Origin: an uncultured Flavobacteriales bacterium
GTDB lineage: Bacteria; Bacteroidota; Bacteroidia; Flavobacteriales_G; Salibacteraceae
DNA length: 64,000 nucleotides
Direction of reading: 5' to 3'
Assembly (NCBI GenBank): GCA_913020435.1
Contig: CAJVZZ010000017.1
Span: 1-64,000 of the forward strand
Below, in pieces: positions 10,319 to 40,002 of this stretch (position 1 is the stretch's first letter; each line of letters starts with the position of its first letter). The notes below the pieces were generated by a model. That model was given only the letters and a program-made list of their open reading frames with translations. It was not told where the DNA came from and did no database searches. The position numbers were made by a program, and so were the translations under genes.

Positions 10319-11076
10319 TGGTACAACCAAAAAAACATCTTGGCCAACACTTCCTGACGGACGAGTCTGTCGTTCAAAAAATTGTTGAGTCACTTTCTAC
10401 ATCTCCTTCAACACAAGTAATTGAAATTGGCCCTGGTACCGGAGCTCTCTCTAAATATTTGCTAAAGAAGGAATTAAAAAACCTTTGGCTTTGCGAAGTC
10501 GACAGAGAGTCGGTAGACTATTTAATTGATGAATTAGGCGTTCCAGATTATCAGCTTTTACAAAAGAGTTTTCTCAGGCTAGAATTAAGTGACCTTAGTT
10601 CCGAACCCATTTCTATAATTGGAAATTTCCCTTACAATATCTCTTCTCAAATTCTATTTAGAGTTTTCGATCAGAGAGATCAAGTTCCTGAATTAGTTGG
10701 AACATTTCAGAAAGAAGTTGGGTTAAGAGTTGCGGCAAACCCAGGTTCTAAAACCTATGGTATTTTAAGTGTTTTATTACAGGCATTCTACAACGTTGAA
10801 TATCTGAATGACATTGATAGAGGTGCTTTTTTTCCTCCTCCTAATGTGGTTAGCGGTGTCATTAGAATGAAAAGAAATTCGGTTAAAGATTTGGGTTGTG
10901 ACACAAAGAATTTTGTTTTGACAGTAAAAACGGCCTTTAATCAAAGAAGAAAGACTCTGAACAATGCATTGAAATCACTCAACACTGAAAAGCGTGAATT
11001 GCCTTATGGAACGCTTAGAGCTGAGACCTTAACAGTTGAGCAGTTTGTTGAAATGACTAAGATTTTGTTTGGTTAG
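10318..11076 (+). CDS. rsmA: 16S rRNA (adenine(1518)-N6/adenine(1519)-N6)-dimethyltransferase
   Basis: RsmA (KsgA) dimethylates A1518 and A1519 in helix 45 of 16S rRNA during small-subunit assembly. The 252-residue protein has the KKHLGQHFL N-terminal signature, SAM-binding motif I GPGTGALS (38-45), the acidic E-V-D at 60-62 and the catalytic motif IV NFPYN (103-107, the NLPY variant). C-terminal residues 215-240 carry the QRRKTLNNALK helix typical of the family. Coupled to DUF4286 by a 1-nt overlap; last gene of the serS-rsmA operon. Length is normal. Confidence 0.96.
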   Translation: MVQPKKHLGQHFLTDESVVQKIVESLSTSPSTQVIEIGPGTGALSKYLLKKELKNLWLCEVDRESVDYLIDELGVPDYQLLQKSFLRLELSDLSSEPISIIGNFPYNISSQILFRVFDQRDQVPELVGTFQKEVGLRVAANPGSKTYGILSVLLQAFYNVEYLNDIDRGAFFPPPNVVSGVIRMKRNSVKDLGCDTKNFVLTVKTAFNQRRKTLNNALKSLNTEKRELPYGTLRAETLTVEQFVEMTKILFG

Positions 11077-11355
11077 TTCTTCTCATTAGTTTTAAAGTAA
11101 AAGCCTTAATATTCTCTTGGCTTATGCGCGATCGTATCGTTTGATATTGTGTTATTTGATGTTCATCGGGTTAAGTTTTTAGATTTCAGATAGAAGGTCC
11201 CCAGCCTCTCCTTCGCCTTCTTGTTCATCTATTCTTCCGGAATGACGGCAGTTAATTTTACCAATAACTGATTTTAAAAGCGCCGTATTAATATGCGCAT
11301 ATCTACGAAATGCAAGGGCAATAAAACCACACCTTATTTACCTCATCAATAACTT
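11077..11355. other. Intergenic region between rsmA and mgtE
   Basis: About 280 nt with no convincing reading frame. Around 11190-11250 the minus strand reads like a degenerate version of the GTCATTCCGG...GAAGG dispersed intergenic repeats common in Bacteroidetes, but only one copy lies in the window, so this is not called as a repeat. The mgtE promoter follows. Confidence 0.4.
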
Positions 11356-11363
11356 TAACTTTG
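11356..11363 (+). promoter_or_regulatory. -7 element TAACTTTG upstream of mgtE
   Basis: Exact TAnnTTTG match 42 nt before the mgtE ATG. The -33 element is weak. Confidence 0.5.
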
Positions 11364-11405
11364 CTTTATAGAATTCATTAATAACAGGAAATTGGAAGGA
11401 GACTT

Positions 11406-12761
11406 ATGCAGTTCGAGCTTACAAAAGAATATCTGTCGGAGATTCGAGAAGCCGCAGCCGCAAGCGATGAAAATCGCCTGATTGGATTATTTAATGAAGT
11501 ACATGCGGCAGATATTGCTGAGATAATAAACGAGCTTACCACCGAAGAAGCAAAAACGGTTCTTCATTTTTTAGATCCAGATCGTGCTTCAGATACCATA
11601 ACGCACTTAGACGAGGAAGACCGAAAAGATCTACTGAATGCATACACTTCAGTAGAAATTGCTGAAAATTTTGTCGAAAACTTAGAAACTGATGATGCGG
11701 CAGATCTTATTCAAGAGCTTTCTGAAGAAAGAAGGGAAGAGGTAATTGCTCAAATAGATGATATAGACCAAGCCAGTCAGATTGTTGATCTTCTTAACTA
11801 CGAAGAAGGAACTGCAGGGGCAATTATGGGTAAAGAAATGGTACGTGTTTATGAGCACTTATCCGTTACTGAAAGTATCCTTGAATTAAGAAAACAAGCT
11901 GAAGATATTGAAAACGTCTATACCGTTTATGTTACTGATGAAAAAGATAGACTAAAAGGAAGGCTGGCGCTTAAGAAGATGCTAGTTGCGCCAACAAGCG
12001 CTAAAATTAAAGATGTCTATGTCTCTGATATTCATTGGGTAAAAGCTGGTGACACAACAGAAGAAGTTGCTAGCATAATGGAGAAATACGATTTAGTTGC
12101 GCTTCCTGTTGTCGATAATTTACATCGTTTGATTGGGCGAATAACTATTGATGATGTTGTTGATGTTATCAAAGAAGAAGCAGATCGTGATTACCAAATG
12201 GCTTCGGGTATTAGCGAAGATGTAGAGTCTACCGATAGTGTTTGGGTGTTAACTCGCGCGAGATTACCATGGTTAATTTTGGGATTGATAGGGGGTATTT
12301 TTGGCGCTCGCGTCATTGGTTTGTATGAGGCCGATATTCAGTTATACCCAGAAATGGCTTTCTTTATTCCTCTTGTAGCAGCAATGGGTGGTAATGTTGG
12401 AGTCCAATCTTCCGCAATAATTGTGCAGGGCCTAGCTAATAATACAATGGGGATGTCTGGCATCCTGCCAAGGCTTTTAAAAGAGTTTTCTGTCGCTCTA
12501 TTAAATGCTATAGCTTGTGCCATAATTGTTTTAGGCTACAATATAATTTTTGGAGATTCATTAAACCTTGCCTATACCGTTAGTTTAGCACTTTTGGCCG
12601 TGATAGTGATTGCAGCACTCTTCGGTACACTTATTCCGCTTACCTTAGATAAGTATAAAATTGATCCAGCGCTTGCCACAGGTCCATTTATCACTACAGT
12701 GAATGATATACTCGGTCTATTTATTTACTTTATGATCGGAAGGTTGATGTACGGGATATGA
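11406..12761 (+). CDS. mgtE: Magnesium transporter MgtE
   Basis: MgtE-type Mg2+ channel, 451 residues. Order of domains: an acidic superhelical MgtE N domain (about 1-130), a pair of CBS domains (about 135-255) that sense cytosolic Mg2+, a connecting helix, and five transmembrane helices (about 285-449). The pore region keeps the conserved AAMGGNVGVQSS segment and the metal-coordinating aspartate in FITTVNDILG (Asp434). An AAGGAG Shine-Dalgarno-like run (11396-11401) sits just before the ATG, which is unusual for this phylum. It has its own promoter. Follows rsmA on the same strand after 329 nt. Confidence 0.95.
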   Translation: MQFELTKEYLSEIREAAAASDENRLIGLFNEVHAADIAEIINELTTEEAKTVLHFLDPDRASDTITHLDEEDRKDLLNAYTSVEIAENFVENLETDDAADLIQELSEERREEVIAQIDDIDQASQIVDLLNYEEGTAGAIMGKEMVRVYEHLSVTESILELRKQAEDIENVYTVYVTDEKDRLKGRLALKKMLVAPTSAKIKDVYVSDIHWVKAGDTTEEVASIMEKYDLVALPVVDNLHRLIGRITIDDVVDVIKEEADRDYQMASGISEDVESTDSVWVLTRARLPWLILGLIGGIFGARVIGLYEADIQLYPEMAFFIPLVAAMGGNVGVQSSAIIVQGLANNTMGMSGILPRLLKEFSVALLNAIACAIIVLGYNIIFGDSLNLAYTVSLALLAVIVIAALFGTLIPLTLDKYKIDPALATGPFITTVNDILGLFIYFMIGRLMYGI

Positions 12762-29711: not shown

Positions 29712-30688
29712 ATTAATTGTGCATTAAGCGTAATAAGTTCCTTTGTGAATCTTTCTTTTATTGAGTTTTCTAAAGCCTCAATATTAAAAATGGTTTTTTT
29801 TAAAAACTGCTGATGTCCTTTAGAATCTGGTTGAAATGGTTTGTGATTGATTGCGGATACTATTTCTTTAATGTTCTGAACTTCAGACAAAGTTTCACTT
29901 TCAAAAAAAGTATTTGATATTTTTTCCCAGATGTATTCTATTGCTGCCTCACTAGGATGAATAAGATCTTTTGTATAAAAACGATAATCTCTTAAATCAT
30001 CAATAAGCCATTCATATCCAGGAATGTAATGTGTATTTTTTGTTGCTTCGATTATTTGATGAGTTGCTGAAATTAGTTCAGCTTTAGAGCGGTTATTTTC
30101 GATAATTCCATCTTTTATATGTCTTACAGGACTTATCGAAAACAAAACTTGTAACGATGGATTTTCTTTTTGTAGCAAGTGTAAGGTTTCAATTCCGATT
30201 TGAGCGATTTCATTACTAGTGGAGAAGTTTTTTTTGAAATTAGACGAATCGATTTTATGGCAATTAGCAACAATTCGTTCTTCGTTTGTGAGCTTATACC
30301 CCCACGCAGTTCCAAACGTTAGAAAAAGATGACTAGCTGTTTTTAATTGGAGTTGAAGGTTAGATTGCTGTTCATTTAAGGATTTTAAAAGACTGGATTC
30401 ATTTTTATGAAAATGCTGGGAATTATGCAACCAAGAGAAATACATATTATTTCTGAAGACCAAATCATTCGCTGTGTAAGGCTGGTTTTGTAGTGCTCTA
30501 TTAAGAATTTCATAAATTGGAATAGGGTGAAAAATGATTCCGTTGGAATTTAATGTTGTTTTGAATTTTAAAGATTGGAATTTTTTACCAATATTTTCCG
30601 CAAAACAACTGCCTATAAAAAGTAGGTTAGATTGTAAGTTTAACTTCACTCCAGAACTCTTCCAGTTTAATTCTGTTCTAAATTTCAT
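29708..30688 (-). CDS. GSCFA domain-containing protein
   Basis: 326-residue protein of the GSCFA family, a branch of SGNH/GDSL hydrolases named after the motif seen here at residues 26-30 (FIGSCFAENIG). A second block, FGTAWGY (about 126-132), and the DLIHPSEAAIEYIWE segment near residue 236 match the expected downstream SGNH blocks that supply the Asp/His. No signal peptide, so cytosolic. The enzymatic activity of the family is unproven. Coupled to the quinone-oxidoreductase-like gene by a 4-nt overlap. Confidence 0.88.
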   Translation of the reverse strand: MKFRTELNWKSSGVKLNLQSNLLFIGSCFAENIGKKFQSLKFKTTLNSNGIIFHPIPIYEILNRALQNQPYTANDLVFRNNMYFSWLHNSQHFHKNESSLLKSLNEQQSNLQLQLKTASHLFLTFGTAWGYKLTNEERIVANCHKIDSSNFKKNFSTSNEIAQIGIETLHLLQKENPSLQVLFSISPVRHIKDGIIENNRSKAELISATHQIIEATKNTHYIPGYEWLIDDLRDYRFYTKDLIHPSEAAIEYIWEKISNTFFESETLSEVQNIKEIVSAINHKPFQPDSKGHQQFLKKTIFNIEALENSIKERFTKELITLNAQLI

Positions 30689-30876
30689 CGCTTTATTTTA
30701 AGTTTCCCTAAATGCTGGAATCCTAGCATTTGCAGAGTTCAAAATTGGTCTAAATTTGAGAGAAATTGAATTAGAATATTATATGACTTCTCAAGAGTTG
30801 AATGAAGAAGAAAAAGTCATAGAGTTCGACCGAAAGAATCGTTGATAATGTTGTTCAGAAAGTAATTCAATATTAA

Positions 30877-31926
30877 TTAGGCTTTTTCAAGTGTAAATGT
30901 AAAGGACGAGCCTTTATCAATTGCGCTAGTAACGCTGACAGTTTGGTGATGAGCATCAATTATATGCTTTACAATTGCTAAACCTAACCCTGTTCCTCCA
31001 ATATGTCTTGATCGGCTTTTGTCGACTCTATAAAAACGCTCAAATAGTCTTGGAAGATGCTTGCCTTCTATTCCAATACCATTATCCTTAACTTCTACAT
31101 TAATTAAAGGAGAATGAGTTGTAAGGTCAATTTTTGTAGTGCCTCCTTCTTTACCATAATTTATACTATTCACGAGAAGGTTAGTAAGAATCTGATCAAT
31201 TTTAGCTTTATCAGCCGTCACGTTTACCACTCTCGTTTTTGGGTTATTGATTTGTAGTTTTACTTTTTTATCTTTTGCTTTTTCTTGAAGATTGTCAGCC
31301 ACATGATATGCCAATTCTACTAAATTGAACTTTGTAATATTCAGGTAGTCTTTGCCAACTTCAAGTTTTGTAATTCGATCTAAATCTCTAGTTAGATTCT
31401 CTAATCGCTCCACATTATTAGCAGCTTTTTGTAAGAATTTATTGCGTATTGACTTGTCATCAACGGCCCCTTCCAAAAGAGTAAGAATGTTTCCCTGGAT
31501 AATTGTGATTGGCGTTTTTAGTTCGTGAGATAGATTGCCAATAAATTCTCTTCGAAATTCGGCCTGTTCTTTTAGATTCGAAATTTCTTTGCGATAATCT
31601 CCTGCCCAGTTTTCTACGTCTTTATTCACCTCTCGGAAGATGTCTTTATTCATATCAACCTTCAACTTGGTTAAGGGTCTACCGATTTTTTCTTGATGAA
31701 TACTTTTGTATATGAGCTTTATTTTTTGATCTATAAACCGCTCCATTAAATAGTAGAACATCCCATAGGAAGCAAAAAAGATAATTATAGGAAAAAGTGC
31801 TAGCAACCCAATGCTTACCTTAAAATTGACTGATAAGACAGAGAATACAATAACAAAAACACCCGCAACAGTTGCAGTGAATAACCCCGCCCTAATGGCG
31901 ATTTTACGAGGTGTCAGGATTTTCAT
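30877..31926 (-). CDS. PhoR-like sensor histidine kinase
   Basis: 349-residue membrane sensor kinase. Two transmembrane helices lie close together (about 15-35 and 38-60) with almost no periplasmic loop, so the stimulus is probably sensed in the membrane or cytosol. HisKA dimerisation domain has the phospho-acceptor His134 in FIGNLSHELKTPITII. The ATPase domain has N box Asn253, G1 DNGIGIEG (281-288), F box FERFYR (295-300) and G2 GGTGLGLAI (310-318). Similar to PhoR, but named families with short loops also include WalK relatives. The upstream response-regulator gene abuts it with no gap. Confidence 0.93.
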   Translation of the reverse strand: MKILTPRKIAIRAGLFTATVAGVFVIVFSVLSVNFKVSIGLLALFPIIIFFASYGMFYYLMERFIDQKIKLIYKSIHQEKIGRPLTKLKVDMNKDIFREVNKDVENWAGDYRKEISNLKEQAEFRREFIGNLSHELKTPITIIQGNILTLLEGAVDDKSIRNKFLQKAANNVERLENLTRDLDRITKLEVGKDYLNITKFNLVELAYHVADNLQEKAKDKKVKLQINNPKTRVVNVTADKAKIDQILTNLLVNSINYGKEGGTTKIDLTTHSPLINVEVKDNGIGIEGKHLPRLFERFYRVDKSRSRHIGGTGLGLAIVKHIIDAHHQTVSVTSAIDKGSSFTFTLEKA

Positions 31927-32601
31927 TTATTTACCGAATTTATACCCTACGCCTTTAATCGTCTTGATATATTTATCGCCAATTTTCTCTCTTAATTTTC
32001 TAATATGCACATCAATTGTTCGGTCTCCTACAACGACCTCGTCTCCCCAAACAGAGCTTAAGATAATTTCACGCGTAAAAACTTTACCAGCCTGAGATGT
32101 TAGTAAACTGAGTAGTTCAAATTCTTTTTTAGGCAAATTCAACTCCTCACCATTAACCTTCACAACATATCGCTCTCGGTCTATAAAAATGCCCTGCACA
32201 TCTTCTTGGGCAATTGGGTTAGAAGGGGACCTTCTTAACATTGCTTTAATGCGAGAAATCAATACTCTTGGTTTAATCGGCTTAGATATATAGTCATCTG
32301 CCCCAGCATCAAAACCTGCAATTTGAGAATAATCCTCACTTCTAGCAGTAAGAAAGGTAATATAAGTATTTTTTAATTTTTTGTTGCTTTTTAGTTCGAT
32401 ACAGGTTTCCATTCCGTCCATTCTCGGCATCATAACATCAAGGATAATAAGGTCTGGAACGACTTTGTCTGCAATTTCTAAGGCCTTAATGCCATCTTCT
32501 GCAGTATAGGTTTCGTAACCTTCTTTTTTCAAGTTATATTCTAAAATTTCGAGAATGTCTGGTTCATCATCTACAAGTAAGATTTTGTGCTTAACTTCCA
32601 T
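31927..32601 (-). CDS. OmpR/PhoB-family response regulator
   Basis: DNA-binding response regulator, 224 residues from the preferred ATG at 32601. A longer frame starts at ATG 32649 and adds 16 residues (MGKDKSTFGKSKKNIT) before the usual family start MEVKHKILLVDDE; it is possible but atypical. Receiver domain: Asp11/Asp12, phospho-acceptor Asp55 (LIILDVMMP), Thr85 and Lys107. Residues 125-224 are a winged-helix Trans_reg_C domain with VGDRTIDVHIRKLREKIG. Divergent from a beta-helix lipoprotein/TonB-receptor locus with a 19-bp palindrome between them. Confidence 0.94.
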   Translation of the reverse strand: MEVKHKILLVDDEPDILEILEYNLKKEGYETYTAEDGIKALEIADKVVPDLIILDVMMPRMDGMETCIELKSNKKLKNTYITFLTARSEDYSQIAGFDAGADDYISKPIKPRVLISRIKAMLRRSPSNPIAQEDVQGIFIDRERYVVKVNGEELNLPKKEFELLSLLTSQAGKVFTREIILSSVWGDEVVVGDRTIDVHIRKLREKIGDKYIKTIKGVGYKFGK

Positions 32602-32730
32602 CGTTATGTTCTTTTTTGACTTTCCAAAAGTTGACTTATCCTTTCCCATGCATATTAATATAAGGTTATGTAAAAATTAACTTAATATTTCAAAGAAAAC
32701 ACATTTGATTGTCTTTTATTTAGTGACTAT

Positions 32731-32749
32731 AGATAGTTCCTAACTATCT
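32731..32749. promoter_or_regulatory. 19-bp palindrome in a divergent intergenic region
   Basis: AGATAGTT, spacer CCT, AACTATCT: perfect 8-bp arms. It lies between the two-component system and the lipoprotein gene, with no T-tract or gene nearby, and so looks like an operator and not a terminator. It does not resemble E. coli Pho-box direct repeats. Nothing else was found in 32602-32944. Confidence 0.45.
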
Positions 32750-32944
32750 TGAAATGAGTTTGTTTGTGTTTCTGTATGGTAAAATCATGCTCACTTTCCA
32801 GCGTTGCATCGATGTTGTTGTAGGCTATTGTCTCATAACATTATTATAACCATCAATTAACTAAGTCGAAAAGCAATTTCAAGAATGCTTGGTGTTCATT
32901 TGCATCAGATTTAATACTAAAAAGAATCTTTTAAAACAATTAAA

Positions 32945-34312
32945 ATGAAAAGAGCAAATTTGACAATTAAGACGTTAATGATGGCAGGATTGTCACTTGC
33001 CGTAGTCGGTGGCATGACATCTTGTAAAAAAGAGGGTTGTACTGATTCAACTGCAACTAATTATGACGAGAAGGCTAAGAAAGACGATGGTTCTTGTATT
33101 GCGTCAACTCCAGTTGTTTCTACACCAACACAGGGTGCTGAAACTAAGACAGGAAAAATTTCTGCTGATGAAACTTGGAATGCAGATAACATTTACACAT
33201 TAAATGGAAAAGTAGTTGTAGAAGATGGTGTAACACTTACTATCGAAGCAGGAACTATTATCAAAGGGGCTGAGGGTCAAGAATCTGCTGCTTCAGCATT
33301 AGTTGTTGCTCAAGGCGGAAAATTAATGGCGGAAGGTACTGCTGAAAATCCAATTATATTCACTTCAACTTTAGATGATATTACGTACGATCAGAAAGTT
33401 GGTACAAACTTGAAGAAAACGAACAATGAGTTATGGGGTGGTATTGTAATCTGTGGCAAAGCAAAGGTTTCTACAGAAAATGGTGATATTGAAGGAAACA
33501 TTGAAGGAATAAATCCTTCAGATGGATTTGGTAAGTATGGTGGTGCAAATGATGCTGATAATTCAGGTTCATTGGCGTATGTTTCTATCCGACATGGAGG
33601 AATTTCTATCGGTGAAGGAAATGAATTGAACGCACTTACTTTAGGTGGAGTTGGAAACGGAACTAAAATTTCAAACATTGAAGTGTATGCGACTCTTGAT
33701 GATGGTATTGAGTGTTTTGGTGGTTCAGTTGATATTACTGATGCACTAGTATTCTATCAAGGTGACGATGGATTGGATTTAGATCAAAACTATTCAGGGA
33801 CTATTTCCGGATTTGCGGTAATTCACGGTGACGGAATTGGAACTGATGAAGGTTTAGAAGTTGATGGACCAGAAGGTTCAACGCATTCTGCCGGTAAATT
33901 CACAATTACTAATGGAATCTGTAAGTCTGAAGGTACTGAAGGAACTCCTGGAGATTTTAAATCAGGTGCTCAAGGAAACGTAACTAATGTAACTTTCATG
34001 TATTCTAGTGCTTCTAAAAAAGCAATTAAATTCAGAACGAAGTTTGTTGATCCAGGTACAGATTGTACTCATAAAGGTGATGCATACAAGAATTTAATTG
34101 ATGGTATGCTAGTGTTTGCAGGTGTTAAAACTGATGCTGATGCTTCTGTATATGATGGTGATAAACCTGACACCCCAGTTTGTGTTACTGAATTAGATGC
34201 CGCACAACTTTCGGGAAAAGGAAAAGTAACGATCAATGGTGCTGGTTCTTCTTACGATTACAAAACCAAATTTTCTTGGGGAGCTGCTGCAAATAATGGC
34301 GAGCTTAACTAG
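32945..34312 (+). CDS. Beta-helix-type surface lipoprotein
   Basis: 455 residues. The N-terminus is a lipoprotein signal with lipobox MTSC and acylated Cys27; the next residues KKEG are a plausible Bacteroidetes surface-export signal. Residues 32-51 hold the CTDSTATNYDEKAKKDDGSC motif, a short Cys-bracketed Asp/Asn-rich element common in Bacteroidetes surface proteins. The rest is rich in Gly, Asp and Asn with many short repeated strands (LTIEAGTIIKG, GGIVICGKAKV, YQGDDGLDLDQNYSG), typical of a right-handed parallel beta-helix, often calcium-binding. It is followed by a TonB receptor. Homologues are sometimes mislabelled multidrug transporter. The ligand is unknown; a partner role with the receptor is inference. 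Confidence 0.82.
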   Translation: MKRANLTIKTLMMAGLSLAVVGGMTSCKKEGCTDSTATNYDEKAKKDDGSCIASTPVVSTPTQGAETKTGKISADETWNADNIYTLNGKVVVEDGVTLTIEAGTIIKGAEGQESAASALVVAQGGKLMAEGTAENPIIFTSTLDDITYDQKVGTNLKKTNNELWGGIVICGKAKVSTENGDIEGNIEGINPSDGFGKYGGANDADNSGSLAYVSIRHGGISIGEGNELNALTLGGVGNGTKISNIEVYATLDDGIECFGGSVDITDALVFYQGDDGLDLDQNYSGTISGFAVIHGDGIGTDEGLEVDGPEGSTHSAGKFTITNGICKSEGTEGTPGDFKSGAQGNVTNVTFMYSSASKKAIKFRTKFVDPGTDCTHKGDAYKNLIDGMLVFAGVKTDADASVYDGDKPDTPVCVTELDAAQLSGKGKVTINGAGSSYDYKTKFSWGAAANNGELN

Positions 34313-34367
34313 AAAAACACTTAACTATTTGGTAATATACTGTTAAACTAAATGGTAATACAAGGCT

Positions 34368-34400
34368 ACCCTGCTGCAATACTTTTGCAGCAGGGTTTTT
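34368..34400 (+). terminator. Terminator of the beta-helix lipoprotein gene
   Basis: Perfect 12-bp stem ACCCTGCTGCAA (34368-34379) with TTGCAGCAGGGT (34385-34396), 5-nt loop and T-tract. Its loop and right arm contain a -7 promoter element for the TonB receptor. Confidence 0.85.
34380..34387 (+). promoter_or_regulatory. -7 element of the TonB receptor inside a terminator
   Basis: TACTTTTG, exact TAnnTTTG match, starting in the loop of the preceding terminator hairpin. The predicted start of transcription (about 34394) gives a leader of about 25 nt before the ATG at 34419. No clear -33 element. Confidence 0.5.
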
Positions 34401-34418
34401 GCATCCTACTATAACACT

Positions 34419-37292
34419 ATGAAAATGAATAAAATACTCAGTATTCTGCTTCTTATTTTTTCAATGACGACTGTATTTGCACAGCAAAAACAGGGTTTTG
34501 TAAGAGGTAATATTTTAGATGGCGACTTTGGAGGTGCACTAATTGGCGCTACTATTTCTCTTACAGATAATCCTAGTAAAGGAACAATTGCAGATTTAGA
34601 TGGCAACTTTTCTCTTCCATTAGATCCAGGACCTTATAAAATTAATGTTTCTTTTATTTCATATGCGACGCAAACCTTCGATGTTGAGGTCAAGTCAGGC
34701 GAAGTTGCTATCTTAGATGCTACGCTTTCATCTGCAGCTGAAGAACTTTCTGCTTATACAGTTGAAGCAAAAGTTCGAAGAACGTCTGAAATAGCTATGC
34801 TGATGGATATGAAAAAGGCAAGTAACGTTACCGATGGTATGTCTGCTCAAACATTCAGAAAAGTAGGGGATAGCGATCTTGGTGGTGCTATGAAAAGAGT
34901 AACTGGTGTAACGGTTCAAGATGGAAAACATGTTTATGTGCGTGGACTTGGAGATAGATATACAAAAACTACGCTCAACGGAATGGCAATCCCAGGATTA
35001 GACCCAGATAAGAATTCTGTTCAAATTGATATTTTCCCAACAAATGTTCTGGAAAACGTAAGTGTGTCTAAAACATTTACACCTGAATTAGATGGAGACT
35101 TTGCCGGAGGATTAATTGATGTGGTTACCAAAAAGTTTCCTGATGAAAAAGCAACTCAGATTAGCATTGGAATGACCTACGTGCCTGGAATGCATTTTAA
35201 CAACGACTATGTACTTTACAATACAGGAAAAATGGATTGGGCTGGTTATGATGATGGATCTAGAAAACTAGGAATTGGAAAAACCACACAAATACCGAAT
35301 TCAGTTTTGAATGATGAAAATTTAGAGTCAGTAACTAGAAATTTTAATTCTCAATTAGCAACAAAGAGTAAAACCGCATTACCAAACGGTTCATTTGCCT
35401 TCAGCCATGGAAATCAAATAAATACAGTTGATGATCGAACTTTTGGATACAACGTAGTATTCAACTACAGAAACGAAACAACATTTTATGAGGAGTTTGA
35501 ATCAAATGATTACTTAAAGAATGTTGACCTTTCTAATCCTGAAATGCAAGCGCAAAGAACAAGAGTTGGTCCTATTGGTAAAAACAATGTGCTTTGGAGT
35601 GGCTTAGTAACCGGATCATACAAAAAAGGAAAAAGTGCGTATTCCGTGACCCTACTAAATACTCAGGGCGGAGAGTCTACAGCATCAAGACGAATTAATA
35701 AGGATGTAGAGCAAAATCAAGCGGTTTTAATAGAAGATATTTTGACTTATCAACAGAGAACATTGTCTACAGTTATGTTTAACGGTAAGCACAAGTTTGG
35801 TTTTGTAGAAGTTGATTGGGGTAATGCAAGTTCATACTCACGAGTTTATGACCCTGATTTTAGAGAAACAAAAATTTCTATAACAGATGGTGACACTACT
35901 TTGTCTACAGGAACAGGCGCAGGAATACAGCGTTTTTGGAGAGATTTAACTGAGTTCAATAATTCATCAAAAGTGGATGTAAAAATGGAGTTCTCTGACA
36001 ACTTCACATTGAAGACAGGAGCTGTAGCGACATTAAAATTTAGAGATTTTGAAACTCAAAATTTCAAACATAGACCGGTAAACCTTAGTGATGTATCTAT
36101 AGATCCAGATTGGTATTTACAAGAAGAAAATGTTTGGCAAGCTTCAAATGATCCTGCTGAATCGTCATCGGGAACCTATACAATTGGAAATTTTCAACCT
36201 GCAAATCAGTATACCTCCAGACAAAATTTATTTGCAGGTTATATTGCTGCTGAACAACGAGTATTTAAGAAGTTAAGATTGATATACGGCGTCCGATTAG
36301 AGCAGGTTAGTATGTATTATACAGGTGAAAATAATACGGGTTCTATTGTTTACAACGACACGAATACCCTTAATGAATTAAATATTCTTCCTTCTTTAAA
36401 TACAGTTTATGAATTATCTGATAAAATGAACTTAAGAGCAGCGGCAAATAGAACAGTTGCGAGACCGACATTTAAAGAGAAATCAATTGCACAGATATAT
36501 GACCCAATAACAAAAAGAACATTTGAAGGGAATATTGATTTAGAGCAAACCTCTATCAACAACTTTGATTTACGTTGGGAGTATTTTTTATCGTCTAAGG
36601 AGTTGATTTCTATTGCAGGTTTTTACAAACAGTTTGATGGTCATATTGAAATGGTTTCTTATCTGGTTAGCCCAGATAACATTAAACCAAGAAATAGTGG
36701 AAGCGCAGAGGTTTTTGGTGCTGAGTTTGAAGTAAGAAAAGCGATTATAAAATCAAAAGATTCAAGTGAATCATTTTTTAATAAGCATTTGAGTAGATTT
36801 TTTGTTTCGGCAAACTTTTCATTAGTTCAATCTAGAGTGGATATGAATAGCGTTTTTGCCGATGATGGTGTTGGCGAAGAAGTATTGACAGAATTAGAGG
36901 TAAGAAGAAATAATGCTAGAGATGGGGAAGTAGTTTCAGATTTCAGACCAATGTCAGGACAATCTCCATATGCAATTAATATTGTTCTTTCTTACGACTT
37001 ACCAGATAATTCAACTAGTGTAGCGTTATCCTACAATGTACAAGGAGAACAATTGACAATAATTGGTTCAGGTAGAGTTCCAGATATATATACTGCATCG
37101 TTCAATAGTTTAAATTTCAATGCATACCGTAAGTTCGGAGAAAAACAAAATCACAGGGTTACGTTAAGCGCCAGAAATTTACTGGATGATGATAGAACAC
37201 TATATTATAAATCGTATGGAGCGGAAACCCAAATTTTCACTTCGTTTAATCCGGGTGTTGGTATTGGAGTAAAATATACTTACACTTTCTAA
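34419..37292 (+). CDS. TonB-dependent outer-membrane receptor
   Basis: 957-residue outer-membrane transporter. Signal peptide MKMNKILSILLLIFSMTTVFAQ; a carboxypeptidase regulatory-like beta domain at about 24-112 (GFVRGNILDGDFGGALIGAT); a plug at about 130-240 (DLGGAMKRVTGVTVQDG, YVRGLGDRYTKTTLNGMAIPG); then a C-terminal barrel ending in an aromatic Phe (VGIGVKYTYTF). It takes up an unknown ligand using the proton motive force through TonB. It is not a SusC type because no SusD partner follows; the upstream surface lipoprotein may fill a similar ligand-capture role. A two-component system is divergent from the pair. A strong terminator follows. Confidence 0.92.
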   Translation: MKMNKILSILLLIFSMTTVFAQQKQGFVRGNILDGDFGGALIGATISLTDNPSKGTIADLDGNFSLPLDPGPYKINVSFISYATQTFDVEVKSGEVAILDATLSSAAEELSAYTVEAKVRRTSEIAMLMDMKKASNVTDGMSAQTFRKVGDSDLGGAMKRVTGVTVQDGKHVYVRGLGDRYTKTTLNGMAIPGLDPDKNSVQIDIFPTNVLENVSVSKTFTPELDGDFAGGLIDVVTKKFPDEKATQISIGMTYVPGMHFNNDYVLYNTGKMDWAGYDDGSRKLGIGKTTQIPNSVLNDENLESVTRNFNSQLATKSKTALPNGSFAFSHGNQINTVDDRTFGYNVVFNYRNETTFYEEFESNDYLKNVDLSNPEMQAQRTRVGPIGKNNVLWSGLVTGSYKKGKSAYSVTLLNTQGGESTASRRINKDVEQNQAVLIEDILTYQQRTLSTVMFNGKHKFGFVEVDWGNASSYSRVYDPDFRETKISITDGDTTLSTGTGAGIQRFWRDLTEFNNSSKVDVKMEFSDNFTLKTGAVATLKFRDFETQNFKHRPVNLSDVSIDPDWYLQEENVWQASNDPAESSSGTYTIGNFQPANQYTSRQNLFAGYIAAEQRVFKKLRLIYGVRLEQVSMYYTGENNTGSIVYNDTNTLNELNILPSLNTVYELSDKMNLRAAANRTVARPTFKEKSIAQIYDPITKRTFEGNIDLEQTSINNFDLRWEYFLSSKELISIAGFYKQFDGHIEMVSYLVSPDNIKPRNSGSAEVFGAEFEVRKAIIKSKDSSESFFNKHLSRFFVSANFSLVQSRVDMNSVFADDGVGEEVLTELEVRRNNARDGEVVSDFRPMSGQSPYAINIVLSYDLPDNSTSVALSYNVQGEQLTIIGSGRVPDIYTASFNSLNFNAYRKFGEKQNHRVTLSARNLLDDDRTLYYKSYGAETQIFTSFNPGVGIGVKYTYTF

Positions 37293-37316
37293 TTTGATAT
37301 TACATCACATTTCAAT

Positions 37317-37353
37317 AAAAAAATGCCATTGTAGTTTGTAAGGGCATTTTTTT
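37317..37353 (+). terminator. Intrinsic terminator after the TonB receptor
   Basis: 11-bp stem AAAAAAATGCC with GGCATTTTTTT, 15-nt loop; A- and T-rich outer ends make it potentially bidirectional. Confidence 0.8.
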
Positions 37354-37550
37354 GATAAACGATATACTAAAACAACGTAAAAGTCATAAGGTGTTTTTGC
37401 TGTTTTCTTATTGATAATACCCGGAATGATTTCTTGTTAAAATGAAAGAAAAAAATTTCAGGTATTAGGCGGTATGCCAGTAATAAATTGATTGAGATAC
37501 AATATTGAATATTTTGAATCTCAATTGTACAGTTATAGCTGGGTTTTTTA
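37354..37550. other. Intergenic region before the T9SS gene
   Basis: AT-rich, no reading frame or repeat recognised. Together with the terminator and following promoter it makes up the 316-nt gap. Confidence 0.4.
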
Positions 37551-37582
37551 TTTGGTGAAAGTATGATTTTTCAGTATTTTCG
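37551..37582 (+). promoter_or_regulatory. Promoter of the T9SS type A gene
   Basis: TTTG at 37551-37554, 20-nt spacer, TATTTTCG at 37575-37582 (one mismatch to TAnnTTTG). Start codon 27 nt downstream. Confidence 0.5.
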
Positions 37583-37608
37583 GTTCTTCAAATCATGAAA
37601 AACTCACT

Positions 37609-38640
37609 ATGAAAACACTTTTAATTCTTTTTTCTATTTTGATTCCAACATTTTTGATTGGACAAGTAACGCTTGATTCAGCCTCTATTATCCCAGGTAT
37701 TGGTACAAAAGTAGATTATTACATTATGAACAATTCTGCGACTTTTGCTGGGCCAGGAAATGCAGGTACTAAGGAAGTTTGGGATTTCTCAAAAATGACA
37801 ATAGGCGATTCCACAGACCTTGAGTTTGAAGCTGTTCAAGGTGGATTTCAAGCGGACCCAAGTAACACTAATTTGTGTGAGCAATACACTGGATTTAATG
37901 GTGTACGGGTTCAATATAAGTCTACTCCAGCTGATTTATACATAATGGGAAACAGAAACGGATTAGTTCAGACGAGCTATGGAAAGGACAGTTTATTAAA
38001 GTTCAAGTTTCCTGTAGCTTATAATAACACCAATACTACAGGATATTATTTCGACGGTGGCACTAGGTTTCGTCCAAATCAAAGGAGGGGTGAATACAAG
38101 ACCACTGTTGATGGTTGGGGTGCTATTCTTTTACCATTTGGAGGTTTAAATGAAATCCTTAGAGTGAAAATTGAAGAGACATATAATGATACTTCTACGT
38201 TTTTAGGAACCGAGACCATAATAGCATATTCTAGTACCACCTATGAGTTTTGGCAAAAAGGAACTGGGAGTTATGTAATGAGTATTAAATATGCAGATGA
38301 AGATGGGGATTTAGATACAATTGTCACCTATAGAAAACAAGATCAGGTTATCATTTCACCAGTTGATACTTCAACTGAAGACACCACCTCAATAATTGAA
38401 ATTCAAACAAAAAAGACACTTCAATTATTTCCAAATCCAGCTTCAACACAGATTAAAGTTTTAGGAAATGATATTGCTGCGAATACTAAAGTCCATATTT
38501 CTAATATGAGTGGAAGTATTTATGAAGTTTTGGAGTTTAATTCTGGGGAATTTGATATTTTAGAATTACCAAAAGGAATTTACTTTCTCATGATAGAAGG
38601 TGATGAGTATCTGCCTATTCGATTTATAAAACAGAATTAA
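37609..38640 (+). CDS. T9SS type A sorting domain protein
   Basis: 343-residue secreted protein. Signal peptide MKTLLILFSILIPTFLIG; residues 20-255 are a beta-rich domain of unknown family beginning QVTLDSASIIPGIGTKVDYY, with a conserved-looking GTKEVWDFSKM segment. Residues 270-343 are a T9SS type A sorting domain (LQLFPNPASTQIKVLG, then LPKGIYFLMIEG). Exported by Sec then T9SS. Own promoter and own terminator, so it is a separate unit from the TonB receptor. No catalytic motif recognised; function unknown. Confidence 0.85.
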   Translation: MKTLLILFSILIPTFLIGQVTLDSASIIPGIGTKVDYYIMNNSATFAGPGNAGTKEVWDFSKMTIGDSTDLEFEAVQGGFQADPSNTNLCEQYTGFNGVRVQYKSTPADLYIMGNRNGLVQTSYGKDSLLKFKFPVAYNNTNTTGYYFDGGTRFRPNQRRGEYKTTVDGWGAILLPFGGLNEILRVKIEETYNDTSTFLGTETIIAYSSTTYEFWQKGTGSYVMSIKYADEDGDLDTIVTYRKQDQVIISPVDTSTEDTTSIIEIQTKKTLQLFPNPASTQIKVLGNDIAANTKVHISNMSGSIYEVLEFNSGEFDILELPKGIYFLMIEGDEYLPIRFIKQN

Positions 38641-38661
38641 TTAAGATTTTAATTAAAAATC

Positions 38662-38696
38662 AAAACCTCGTGTACCTTTGTTTACGAGGTTTTTTT
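38662..38696 (+). terminator. Terminator of the T9SS type A gene
   Basis: 10-bp stem AAAACCTCGT (38662-38671) with ACGAGGTTTT (38684-38693), 12-nt loop, T-tract of seven. Its loop contains the next gene's -7 element. Confidence 0.85.
38673..38680 (+). promoter_or_regulatory. -7 element of the YqaA-like gene inside a terminator loop
   Basis: TACCTTTG, exact TAnnTTTG match, lies wholly in the loop of the preceding terminator. Predicted start of transcription is about 38687, roughly 30 nt before the ATG at 38716. Confidence 0.5.
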
Positions 38697-38715
38697 ATGA
38701 CCATTATTTTTCTAT

Positions 38716-39156
38716 ATGATGTTTCTTGACCCAGCTCTTTGGGCTTTATTTCTGAATTCGTTTCTGGCAGCGACCATTCTTCCGATTGGTTCAGAACCCT
38801 ATTTGACGGGCCTTATTCTTACCGATTATCCTCCAATTCAATGTTTAGTTTATGCTTCGATTGGAAATACGCTTGGAGGAATTACATCCTTTTATTTCGG
38901 AAGATTAGGTAAGTGGGATTGGATAGAAAAATACTTGAAAATTAAAAGAGAAAAGGTGGAAAGCTTTAGTGCTAGAGTTAATCGCTATGGAGTTTGGACT
39001 GCTTTCTTAACTTGGTTGCCCTTTATTGGAGACCCTATTGCGGTTGCATTGGGTTTCTTTAGAGTAAAGGCTATTCCGGTATTTATTTTAATGTTTTTAG
39101 GAAAGACTTTGAGGTATGCGGGATTGATTTACATTGTTCAGCAAGGGGTGAGTTGA
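38716..39156 (+). CDS. YqaA-like small membrane protein (DedA-related)
   Basis: 146-residue inner-membrane protein of the YqaA family, related to SNARE-associated/DedA (VTT) proteins. It starts MMFLDPALWALFLNSFLAATILPIGSE and has the family features SIGNTLGGITSFYFGRLGKW and LTWLPFIGDPIAVALGFFRV, with four hydrophobic segments. DedA relatives flip lipids such as undecaprenyl phosphate; for YqaA this is unproven. Its last 19 nt overlap the convergent methyltransferase gene. Start could also be the second ATG at 38719. Confidence 0.85.
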   Translation: MMFLDPALWALFLNSFLAATILPIGSEPYLTGLILTDYPPIQCLVYASIGNTLGGITSFYFGRLGKWDWIEKYLKIKREKVESFSARVNRYGVWTAFLTWLPFIGDPIAVALGFFRVKAIPVFILMFLGKTLRYAGLIYIVQQGVS

Positions 39157-39770
39157 AGTGTTAAAACTAAATCCTTATAATACTTTTTACCGAGTTTCCT
39201 TTTTTTAATAATACTCAGTTTTTCTGATGCAAAAAGTGAATAGAATTCAGGAAGCGAAGCACGCTCAGTAGCTCCAACTGAATTGAAAATCAAATACATG
39301 AAATTAATCAAAGCTTTCTGAAATTTTGATGAGTTATTTGAAAAATCAGTAATCATTATAAAGCCTTTTTTTTGCAGAATAGACTTGGTTTTATGTAATA
39401 AATTATGACAATTAATTTCACTAAACAAGTCCAATATAAACGGAAGAACTACTAAATCAAACTTCTGATTTGTATCCCACTCAAAAATGCTTTTACATTT
39501 AAAATCGACCCTTTTTTGGTCTTGAGTTGAAACTCTCTTTTCAGAAAGTTCAATCATTTTTGAGGAAGATTCGACGTAGGTTATCCTAGTTGTTGGGTAT
39601 TGGTTCAAACAAAAAGACAAAAGTTCTCCACTGCCACCGCCAACGATTAAAATTTGCGCAGGGTCAAGTTTTTTGGTAAGAAAATGTGTCTGTGCTTTAA
39701 AAAGCAAATCTCCAAAAACCAGTTTCACAAAAAACAGGTAATATGGAGCTATAAGGTTGTATCCATTCAT
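39138..39770 (-). CDS. Class I SAM-dependent methyltransferase
   Basis: 210-residue Rossmann-fold methyltransferase. SAM-binding motif I is ILIVGGGSGELL (about 40-51), followed by an acidic motif II (YVESSSKMIELSE) and a motif around LVVLPFILDLF. Substrate not predictable. A -7 element TAACTTTG lies about 31 nt upstream on the minus strand. It is convergent with, and overlaps by 19 nt, the YqaA-like gene. Confidence 0.85.
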   Translation of the reverse strand: MNGYNLIAPYYLFFVKLVFGDLLFKAQTHFLTKKLDPAQILIVGGGSGELLSFCLNQYPTTRITYVESSSKMIELSEKRVSTQDQKRVDFKCKSIFEWDTNQKFDLVVLPFILDLFSEINCHNLLHKTKSILQKKGFIMITDFSNNSSKFQKALINFMYLIFNSVGATERASLPEFYSLFASEKLSIIKKRKLGKKYYKDLVLTLQLTPC

Positions 39771-39801
39771 TTTTCTATGCGGTTTCGAGGTTTCTCAAAA
39801 C

Positions 39802-39809
39802 CAAAGTTA
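39802..39809 (-). promoter_or_regulatory. -7 element TAACTTTG of the methyltransferase gene
   Basis: Exact TAnnTTTG match on the minus strand, 31 nt before the ATG at 39770. Confidence 0.45.
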
Positions 39810-39831
39810 TGAACAGTGTAAAAGGCCGATT

Positions 39832-40002
39832 TTATACAAAAAGATGTTCTAGATCGTCTTTTGAGTAACGATACTTCTCTTTTAATTCGTCTTCACGAAT
39901 AAATTTGAATGCATCATTATTCAGTAGTAAAAAGTTACTTTTTCCCTTTTGTGCTTTAGCTTTCTTTCGATTTTTAAAGTTTGTAATTCGTTTTAAGGTC
40001 AT
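39832..40002 (-). CDS. Small basic protein, 56 residues
   Basis: ATG at 40002 opens a 56-codon frame ending with TAA at 39834-39832. The product begins MTLKRITNFKNRKKAKAQKG, a very basic first third, then becomes acidic-amphipathic (FKFIREDELKEKYRYSKDDL). It has no signal or membrane segment. Support comes from context: it fills a 266-nt gap otherwise empty, ATG to stop is uninterrupted, and a good promoter (TTG, 20-nt spacer, TACTTTTG) sits 17 nt upstream, inside the 3' end of hemL. The basic region suggests nucleic-acid or ribosome binding, which is inference only. No family recognised. Confidence 0.6.
   Translation of the reverse strand: MTLKRITNFKNRKKAKAQKGKSNFLLLNNDAFKFIREDELKEKYRYSKDDLEHLFV

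Follow-up and report, generated by a model that had tools for sequence, protein, structure and literature searches.

We report that a two-component system and a divergent gene pair for a beta-helix surface lipoprotein (LP) and a TonB-dependent receptor (TBDR) in an uncultured Flavobacteriales bacterium very probably constitute a phosphorus-acquisition locus of a PHO regulon under PhoBR-type control. The locus belongs to an already known type, the phosphate-starvation lipoprotein-receptor cluster of Flavobacterium and Caulobacter, and does not represent a novel type. The LP-TBDR pair is widespread, in F. johnsoniae its homologues rank among the surface proteins most strongly induced by phosphate depletion, and the conserved 11-bp repeat described below represents a testable candidate Pho box for the Bacteroidota. 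Moreover, Pst and PhoU are lacking, which poses the question of the means by which phosphate is sensed here. "The window" refers to the whole stretch of DNA analysed (64,000 nucleotides).

Gene content of the locus

The features are listed in Table 1. The kinase carries HisKA and HATPase domains, with the H-box SHELKTP at residue 133, and its hydrophobic segment is unbroken (19-residue windows, starts 8-43), the external loop between the two membrane passes amounting to approximately five residues (NFKVS). The regulator ORF opens at 32649, but translation more likely begins at Met17 (32601), and with this start the regulator-side repeat array would fall within the regulator promoter. The TBDR has CarbopepD_reg, Plug and beta-barrel domains, and its best NCBIfam match, below the cut-off of that model, is TIGR01782 (TonB-Xanth-Caul), which fits the proteobacterial relatives of the pair (Caulobacter, Sphingomonas, Indioceanicola and Alteromonas). 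No SusC model matched the TBDR, no Pfam or NCBIfam family (SusD family included) matched the LP, and SusD is absent at the locus, which thus has neither the SusC-family receptor nor the SusD-family lipoprotein of a SusCD system. The preliminary description, i.e. a PhoR/PhoB-like pair with nearly no sensor periplasmic loop, divergent from a lipoprotein with a DDGSC motif and a non-SusC TonB receptor with no SusD, is therefore borne out in domains, coordinates and identities. A T9SS-sorted secreted protein encoded 3' of the TBDR (window positions 37609-38640) also occurs nearby in three congeners (L068, L069 and L100) and is apparently genus-specific.

Table 1. Coordinates of the features of the locus and of a related site elsewhere in the genome
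Feature	Coordinates	Strand	Remarks
PhoR-like sensor histidine kinase	30877..31926	-	349 aa, two membrane passes, no PAS domain
PhoB-like response regulator	31927..32649	-	Receiver + Trans_reg_C; annotated from first ATG
Regulator-side Pho-box-like array	32654..32680	-	TTAAT-N6-ATAAC-N6-TTAAT, 11-bp spacing
Perfect 8-3-8 palindrome	32731..32749	.	Likely no operator
LP-side Pho-box-like array	32835..32861	+	ATAAC-N6-ATAAC-N6-TTAAC, 11-bp spacing
LP, beta-helix surface lipoprotein, FII/ElpS-type	32945..34312	+	455 aa, lipobox Cys27
Hairpin with T-run	34368..34396	+	12 pairs, 7 GC; between LP and TBDR genes
TBDR, TonB-dependent receptor, non-SusC	34419..37292	+	957 aa
Na/Pi cotransporter (PhoU domains at C-terminus) and divergent OprP-type porin	G000 contig C6:47703-51077 (L122)		Repeat between

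The canonical PhoB and PhoR models all scored below their curated cut-offs (score/cut-off: NF053854, 214.8/270; NF053855, 166.6/500; TIGR02154, 210.9/296.2; TIGR02966, 231.7/334.2). This would suit a general regulator of envelope or redox functions, resembling PhoPR of Riemerella, for which the pair is only one of many targets and no dedicated phosphate response; the sensor has no known phosphate-sensing domain, Pst and PhoU are missing, and Riemerella PhoP, a related regulator that prefers TTTAACA (PMC9603813), controls bat, cytochrome and other genes with a motif of this type. We consider such a general regulator unlikely, however, given that the OprP and TBDR/LP gene order corresponds to that of the phosphate-responsive Flavobacterium cluster and that a repeat box lies between the Na/Pi cotransporter and the OprP-type porin in the same genome.

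The lipoprotein and receptor genes are inherited together

The LP and TBDR are a true co-inherited pair. In a survey of 60 relatives, where the TBDR was scored at E≤1e-30 together with the beta-helix part of the LP and counts were read by hand from the tables, both genes were present in 46, the TBDR alone in four, the LP alone in none, and neither in 10 (Fisher p 1.3e-8). Rare neighbouring of the two families had been named beforehand as a finding that would refute the proposal; the opposite was seen, with the two genes adjacent in 43 of the 46 relatives that have both. Among the four with the TBDR alone, one has it at a contig end and two are fragmented assemblies. The pair is also tied to the divergent two-component system, as had been proposed: regulator and kinase genes adjoin it in 30 of the 31 same-family genomes having the pair, and 70 of 80 named loci, mostly from Flavobacterium and Weeksellaceae, have the kinase and regulator divergent from the TBDR and LP. 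Two gene orders, LP then TBDR and TBDR then LP, are present among the relatives. More broadly, 181 of the 247 genomes sampled from the class have a member of the LP family, and members occur in alpha- and gammaproteobacteria as well.

Variants of these genes were also noted. The LP family includes proteins of 1,100-1,840 aa with a double or multiple beta-helix (L092, L103 and other class-level genomes), and some relatives, as in L093, have a T9SS sorting tail in place of the lipobox. In one locus (L104 in G030, 10335-12108) the regulator and kinase genes are split into several frames, reflecting assembly errors or decay.

Phosphate genes surround the pair in relatives

In Flavobacterium limi (L163) the genes are ordered OprP-PhoR-PhoB followed by the divergent TBDR-LP, which is the gene order of Fjoh_0542-0546 in F. 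johnsoniae, i.e. OprP, PhoR, PhoB, TBDT and lipoprotein FII, referred to as PUSIV or the PhoBR operon (PMC8115612). The LP is homologous to the Flavobacterium FII-position lipoprotein, as seen via F. limi (31% identity over 359 residues, E 3e-36), and the identities to the F. limi regulator, PhoR-position kinase and receptor are 62%, 44% and 27%, respectively. With the kinase-regulator genes divergent from an adjoining LP-TBDR pair, the locus is by its gene arrangement a cluster of the PUSIV type. Upon Pi depletion of F. johnsoniae the receptor, FII and phoB increase by 8.0, 9.9 and 3.1, given as "FC" in Table 1 of that study while its text uses log2FC (PMC8115612).

Other lineages provide similar contexts. 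Specifically, one operon (L093) comprises genes for TBDR, LP, OprP, PstS, PstC, PstA and PstB; in Sphingobacterium a pst gene is divergent from TBDR-LP in place of the kinase-regulator genes; and a Na/Pi cotransporter gene is located near the pair in 16 further loci (L070-L073, L075, L076, L078, L080-L083, L086, L102, L104, L105 and L107). On the Alteromonas macleodii plasmid pBGP9 (L261) the order is phoB, phoR, PstS, 2OG-Fe oxygenase, LP, TBDR, DUF3450 and ExbB, which makes this phosphate operon plasmid-borne, and the product in the LP position is a giant beta-helix protein. In Pseudoalteromonas the LP-TBDR genes follow ExbB-ExbD-TonB, and Sphingomonas and Indioceanicola have LP-TBDR-T2SS (gsp) loci arranged as Caulobacter cc0170 (ElpS)/cc0171.

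Of the ligands originally left open (phosphate, metal or a polymer), this gene context, i.e. the pst, OprP, Na/Pi cotransporter and phoBR neighbours, narrows the choice to phosphorus compounds. Import of a metal or an ordinary polysaccharide would accord with metal complexes and glycans being classical cargo of TonB receptors, and with the resemblance of the LP beta-helix to polysaccharide enzymes. That reading is nevertheless highly improbable: phosphate genes recur as neighbours in several lineages, and in F. johnsoniae the homologues are among the uncharacterised low-Pi loci described as tightly repressed when N or Fe is limiting (PMC8115612).

Direct repeats with 11-bp spacing in the intergenic DNA

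The palindrome between the divergent genes exists as described, while its presumed role as operator is not supported. A palindrome of equal or better quality (8-bp arms, spacer 0-10) occurred in 14% of shuffled intergenic copies (P = 0.14), the window has 36 of this quality, and a 6-3-6 core is kept only in the two closest congeners. We therefore reject it as an operator, being at chance level and unconserved past these two congeners; direct repeats spaced by 11 bp are conserved instead.

In a pattern scan of the whole genome, no exact three-repeat match other than the LP-side array was obtained. The regulator-side array is conserved in the two closest congeners, with comparable arrays in more distant orthologues. 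Best three-repeat WTAAC scores were compared between period 11 and periods 8-10 and 12-14. Period 11 gave z = 17.3 (next best 4.3) for 29 orthologous intergenic regions and z = 21.5 (next 5.7) for 70 named intergenic regions, where the orthologues are not statistically independent, and z = 6.7 (next 1.8) upstream of 14 Na/Pi cotransporter genes. Hence, tandem direct repeats with the spacing of a Pho-box promoter are positioned 5' of phosphate genes. E. coli Pho boxes are likewise 11-bp direct repeats. One-mismatch three-repeat sites are no commoner in the genome (seven) than those of a reversed-pattern control (13), so the motif by itself is weak and it is position and conservation that count. 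One of these sites lies between the Na/Pi cotransporter and the OprP-type porin genes (Table 1). The idea of a "self-contained" system is contradicted by this; the intergenic region appears rather as one promoter of a PHO regulon. Taken together, the operators are likely the TAAC repeats, with one array facing each gene set. A literature search turned up no Pho box published for Bacteroidota, although this argues only weakly that none exists.

Five consecutive TTAAC/TTAAT repeats with 11-bp spacing are present at another position (G000 contig C31:20276-20324; L124-L126), just 5' of a gene encoding a small, secreted MORN-like protein, with the gene for a DUF349 protein in divergent orientation. 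This may be a further regulon site, and there is no phosphate gene alongside.

Possible phosphate sensing without PstB and stand-alone PhoU

No PstB was detected in the genome or in any of 34 same-family relatives (E≤1e-100, best 37 candidates scored), while 13 of 14 control genomes were positive. Neither was a stand-alone PhoU present in the genome, whose only PhoU domains form the tail of the Na/Pi cotransporter. The components of E. coli-type sensing by a Pst/PhoU-linked PhoR are thus lacking, and the signal to the kinase must come by a route other than that of E. coli. A lack of PstSABC has likewise been reported for plant-associated Bacteroidetes (PMC8115612).

A hairpin between the LP and TBDR genes

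The hairpin between the two genes has a predicted energy of -23.9 kcal/mol (z -5.1). Comparable hairpins, differing in sequence, were found in 14 of 20 LP-first gaps and five of 20 receptor-first gaps and in none of the shuffled sequences, and an Rfam search of positions 30000-40000 gave no match. It is likely an attenuator or a 3'-end stabiliser, which suggests that the LP might be made in excess over the TBDR.

Fold and possible role of the lipoprotein

The AlphaFold model of the LP is a right-handed beta-helix (pLDDT 88.9). A sequence search of the PDB gave no match and Foldseek with the model none below E 0.001, and realignment revealed general beta-helix similarity only (Z about 20-22, ~10% identity to the best matches), with alginate epimerases (AlgG, AlgE4), PL6 lyases, tailspikes and NosD as structural matches. 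The LP carries a GCTD...DDGSC motif. DDGSC also occurs at approximately six other places in the genome and is missing in several LP orthologues; as a generic module it was rejected as a specific ligand site. Residues invariant across 31 LP orthologues include D252, D253, E256, D274, D275, D278, E305 and D307, and in the model the paired Asp residues sit in turns after successive long strands, so that they would probably line up as an acidic ladder along one face. As the invariant residues are acidic, a phosphate ligand bound there would need a bridging metal. Several orthologues have an acid-rich stretch right after the lipobox Cys, e.g. CSDDDDDD, resembling the surface-export signals in PMC5080379; the window LP has CKKEG, a weaker match.

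The LP might instead be an extracellular enzyme or a phosphatase activator, not a lid, freeing phosphate from polymers while the TBDR imports a different product. We regard this as quite possible, though not probable. ElpS overexpression raises extracellular alkaline phosphatase activity, yet purified ElpS has no phosphatase activity (PMC2996285). The fold matches polysaccharide-modifying enzymes (e.g. AlgG, AlgE4, PL6 lyases; Z about 20-21), and successive coils carry the invariant acidic residues in their turns; the non-enzymes NosD, pertactin and the adhesin PfbA score equally, however, and the fold consequently does not decide between binder and enzyme. FI and FII are abundant exoproteins in F. 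johnsoniae (PMC8115612), as would suit an enzyme, whereas the near-obligate LP-receptor pairing and a hairpin that would produce an LP excess are more like a binding partner.

Proposed mechanism

For the reading as a phosphorus-acquisition locus we propose that phosphate limitation activates the short-sensor kinase, with phosphate as the presumed signal, and that the kinase phosphorylates the PhoB-like regulator, which would bind the tandem TAAC repeats and turn on the LP-TBDR operon and, via the second facing array, its own gene. With the hairpin favouring the LP over the TBDR, the LP would reach the cell surface and work alongside the TBDR in collecting a ligand that contains phosphorus and pass it to the TBDR for TonB-driven import. 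The likeliest ligand would be an organic or polymeric phosphate whose size keeps it out of an OprP-type porin. Sequence evidence shows the pair and its ties to the two-component system and to phosphate transporters, as well as the conserved 11-bp repeats, the hairpin and the fold; induction by phosphate depletion is carried over from experiments on relatives. A wider proposal is offered tentatively and is doubtful: a family-wide PHO regulon without Pst or stand-alone PhoU, with a kinase that is embedded in the membrane and may be coupled to the Na/Pi cotransporter through which PhoU domains are present, and with the LP as a metal-bridged acidic-ladder capture lid of an organic-phosphate TBDR, common to Bacteroidota and Proteobacteria.

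Comparison with known systems

The locus shares with F. johnsoniae PUSIV four gene families, a kinase-regulator pair adjoining a receptor-lipoprotein pair, a beta-helix (IPR011050) lipoprotein and the lack of SusD, where the likeness is read through Flavobacterium congeners of equal gene order (F. limi), in which the pairs are divergent. In contrast to PUSIV, the LP gene here comes first and the TBDR gene second with a hairpin between them, OprP is encoded elsewhere, and identity to the F. limi equivalents is 27-62%.

In Caulobacter crescentus a surface lipoprotein gene, elpS (CC0170), is likewise situated beside a TonB receptor gene, CC0171; the likeness is read from gene arrangement and from homologous Sphingomonas and Indioceanicola loci. 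ElpS is made on phosphate starvation, and the ElpS/CC0171 gene co-occurrence was pointed out in 2010 (PMC2996285). That pair adjoins a type II secretion system whereas the window pair adjoins phoBR. Moreover, cc0171 was reported to be constitutive, and ElpS was still produced when cc0171 had been deleted (PMC2996285). Considering this, and that ElpS, itself not a phosphatase, increased alkaline phosphatase activity (PMC2996285), an accessory role fits as well as capture.

SusC-SusD likewise comprises a gene pair for a receptor and a surface lipoprotein, but the window TBDR and LP match no SusC or SusD models. Finally, Bacteroides BtuB-BtuG, a TonB receptor with a non-SusD surface lipoprotein that acts as a B12-binding lid (PMC10404256), is our proposed working model, the LP being likened to BtuG by arrangement; with this precedent it is plausible that the LP replaces SusD as the capture partner.
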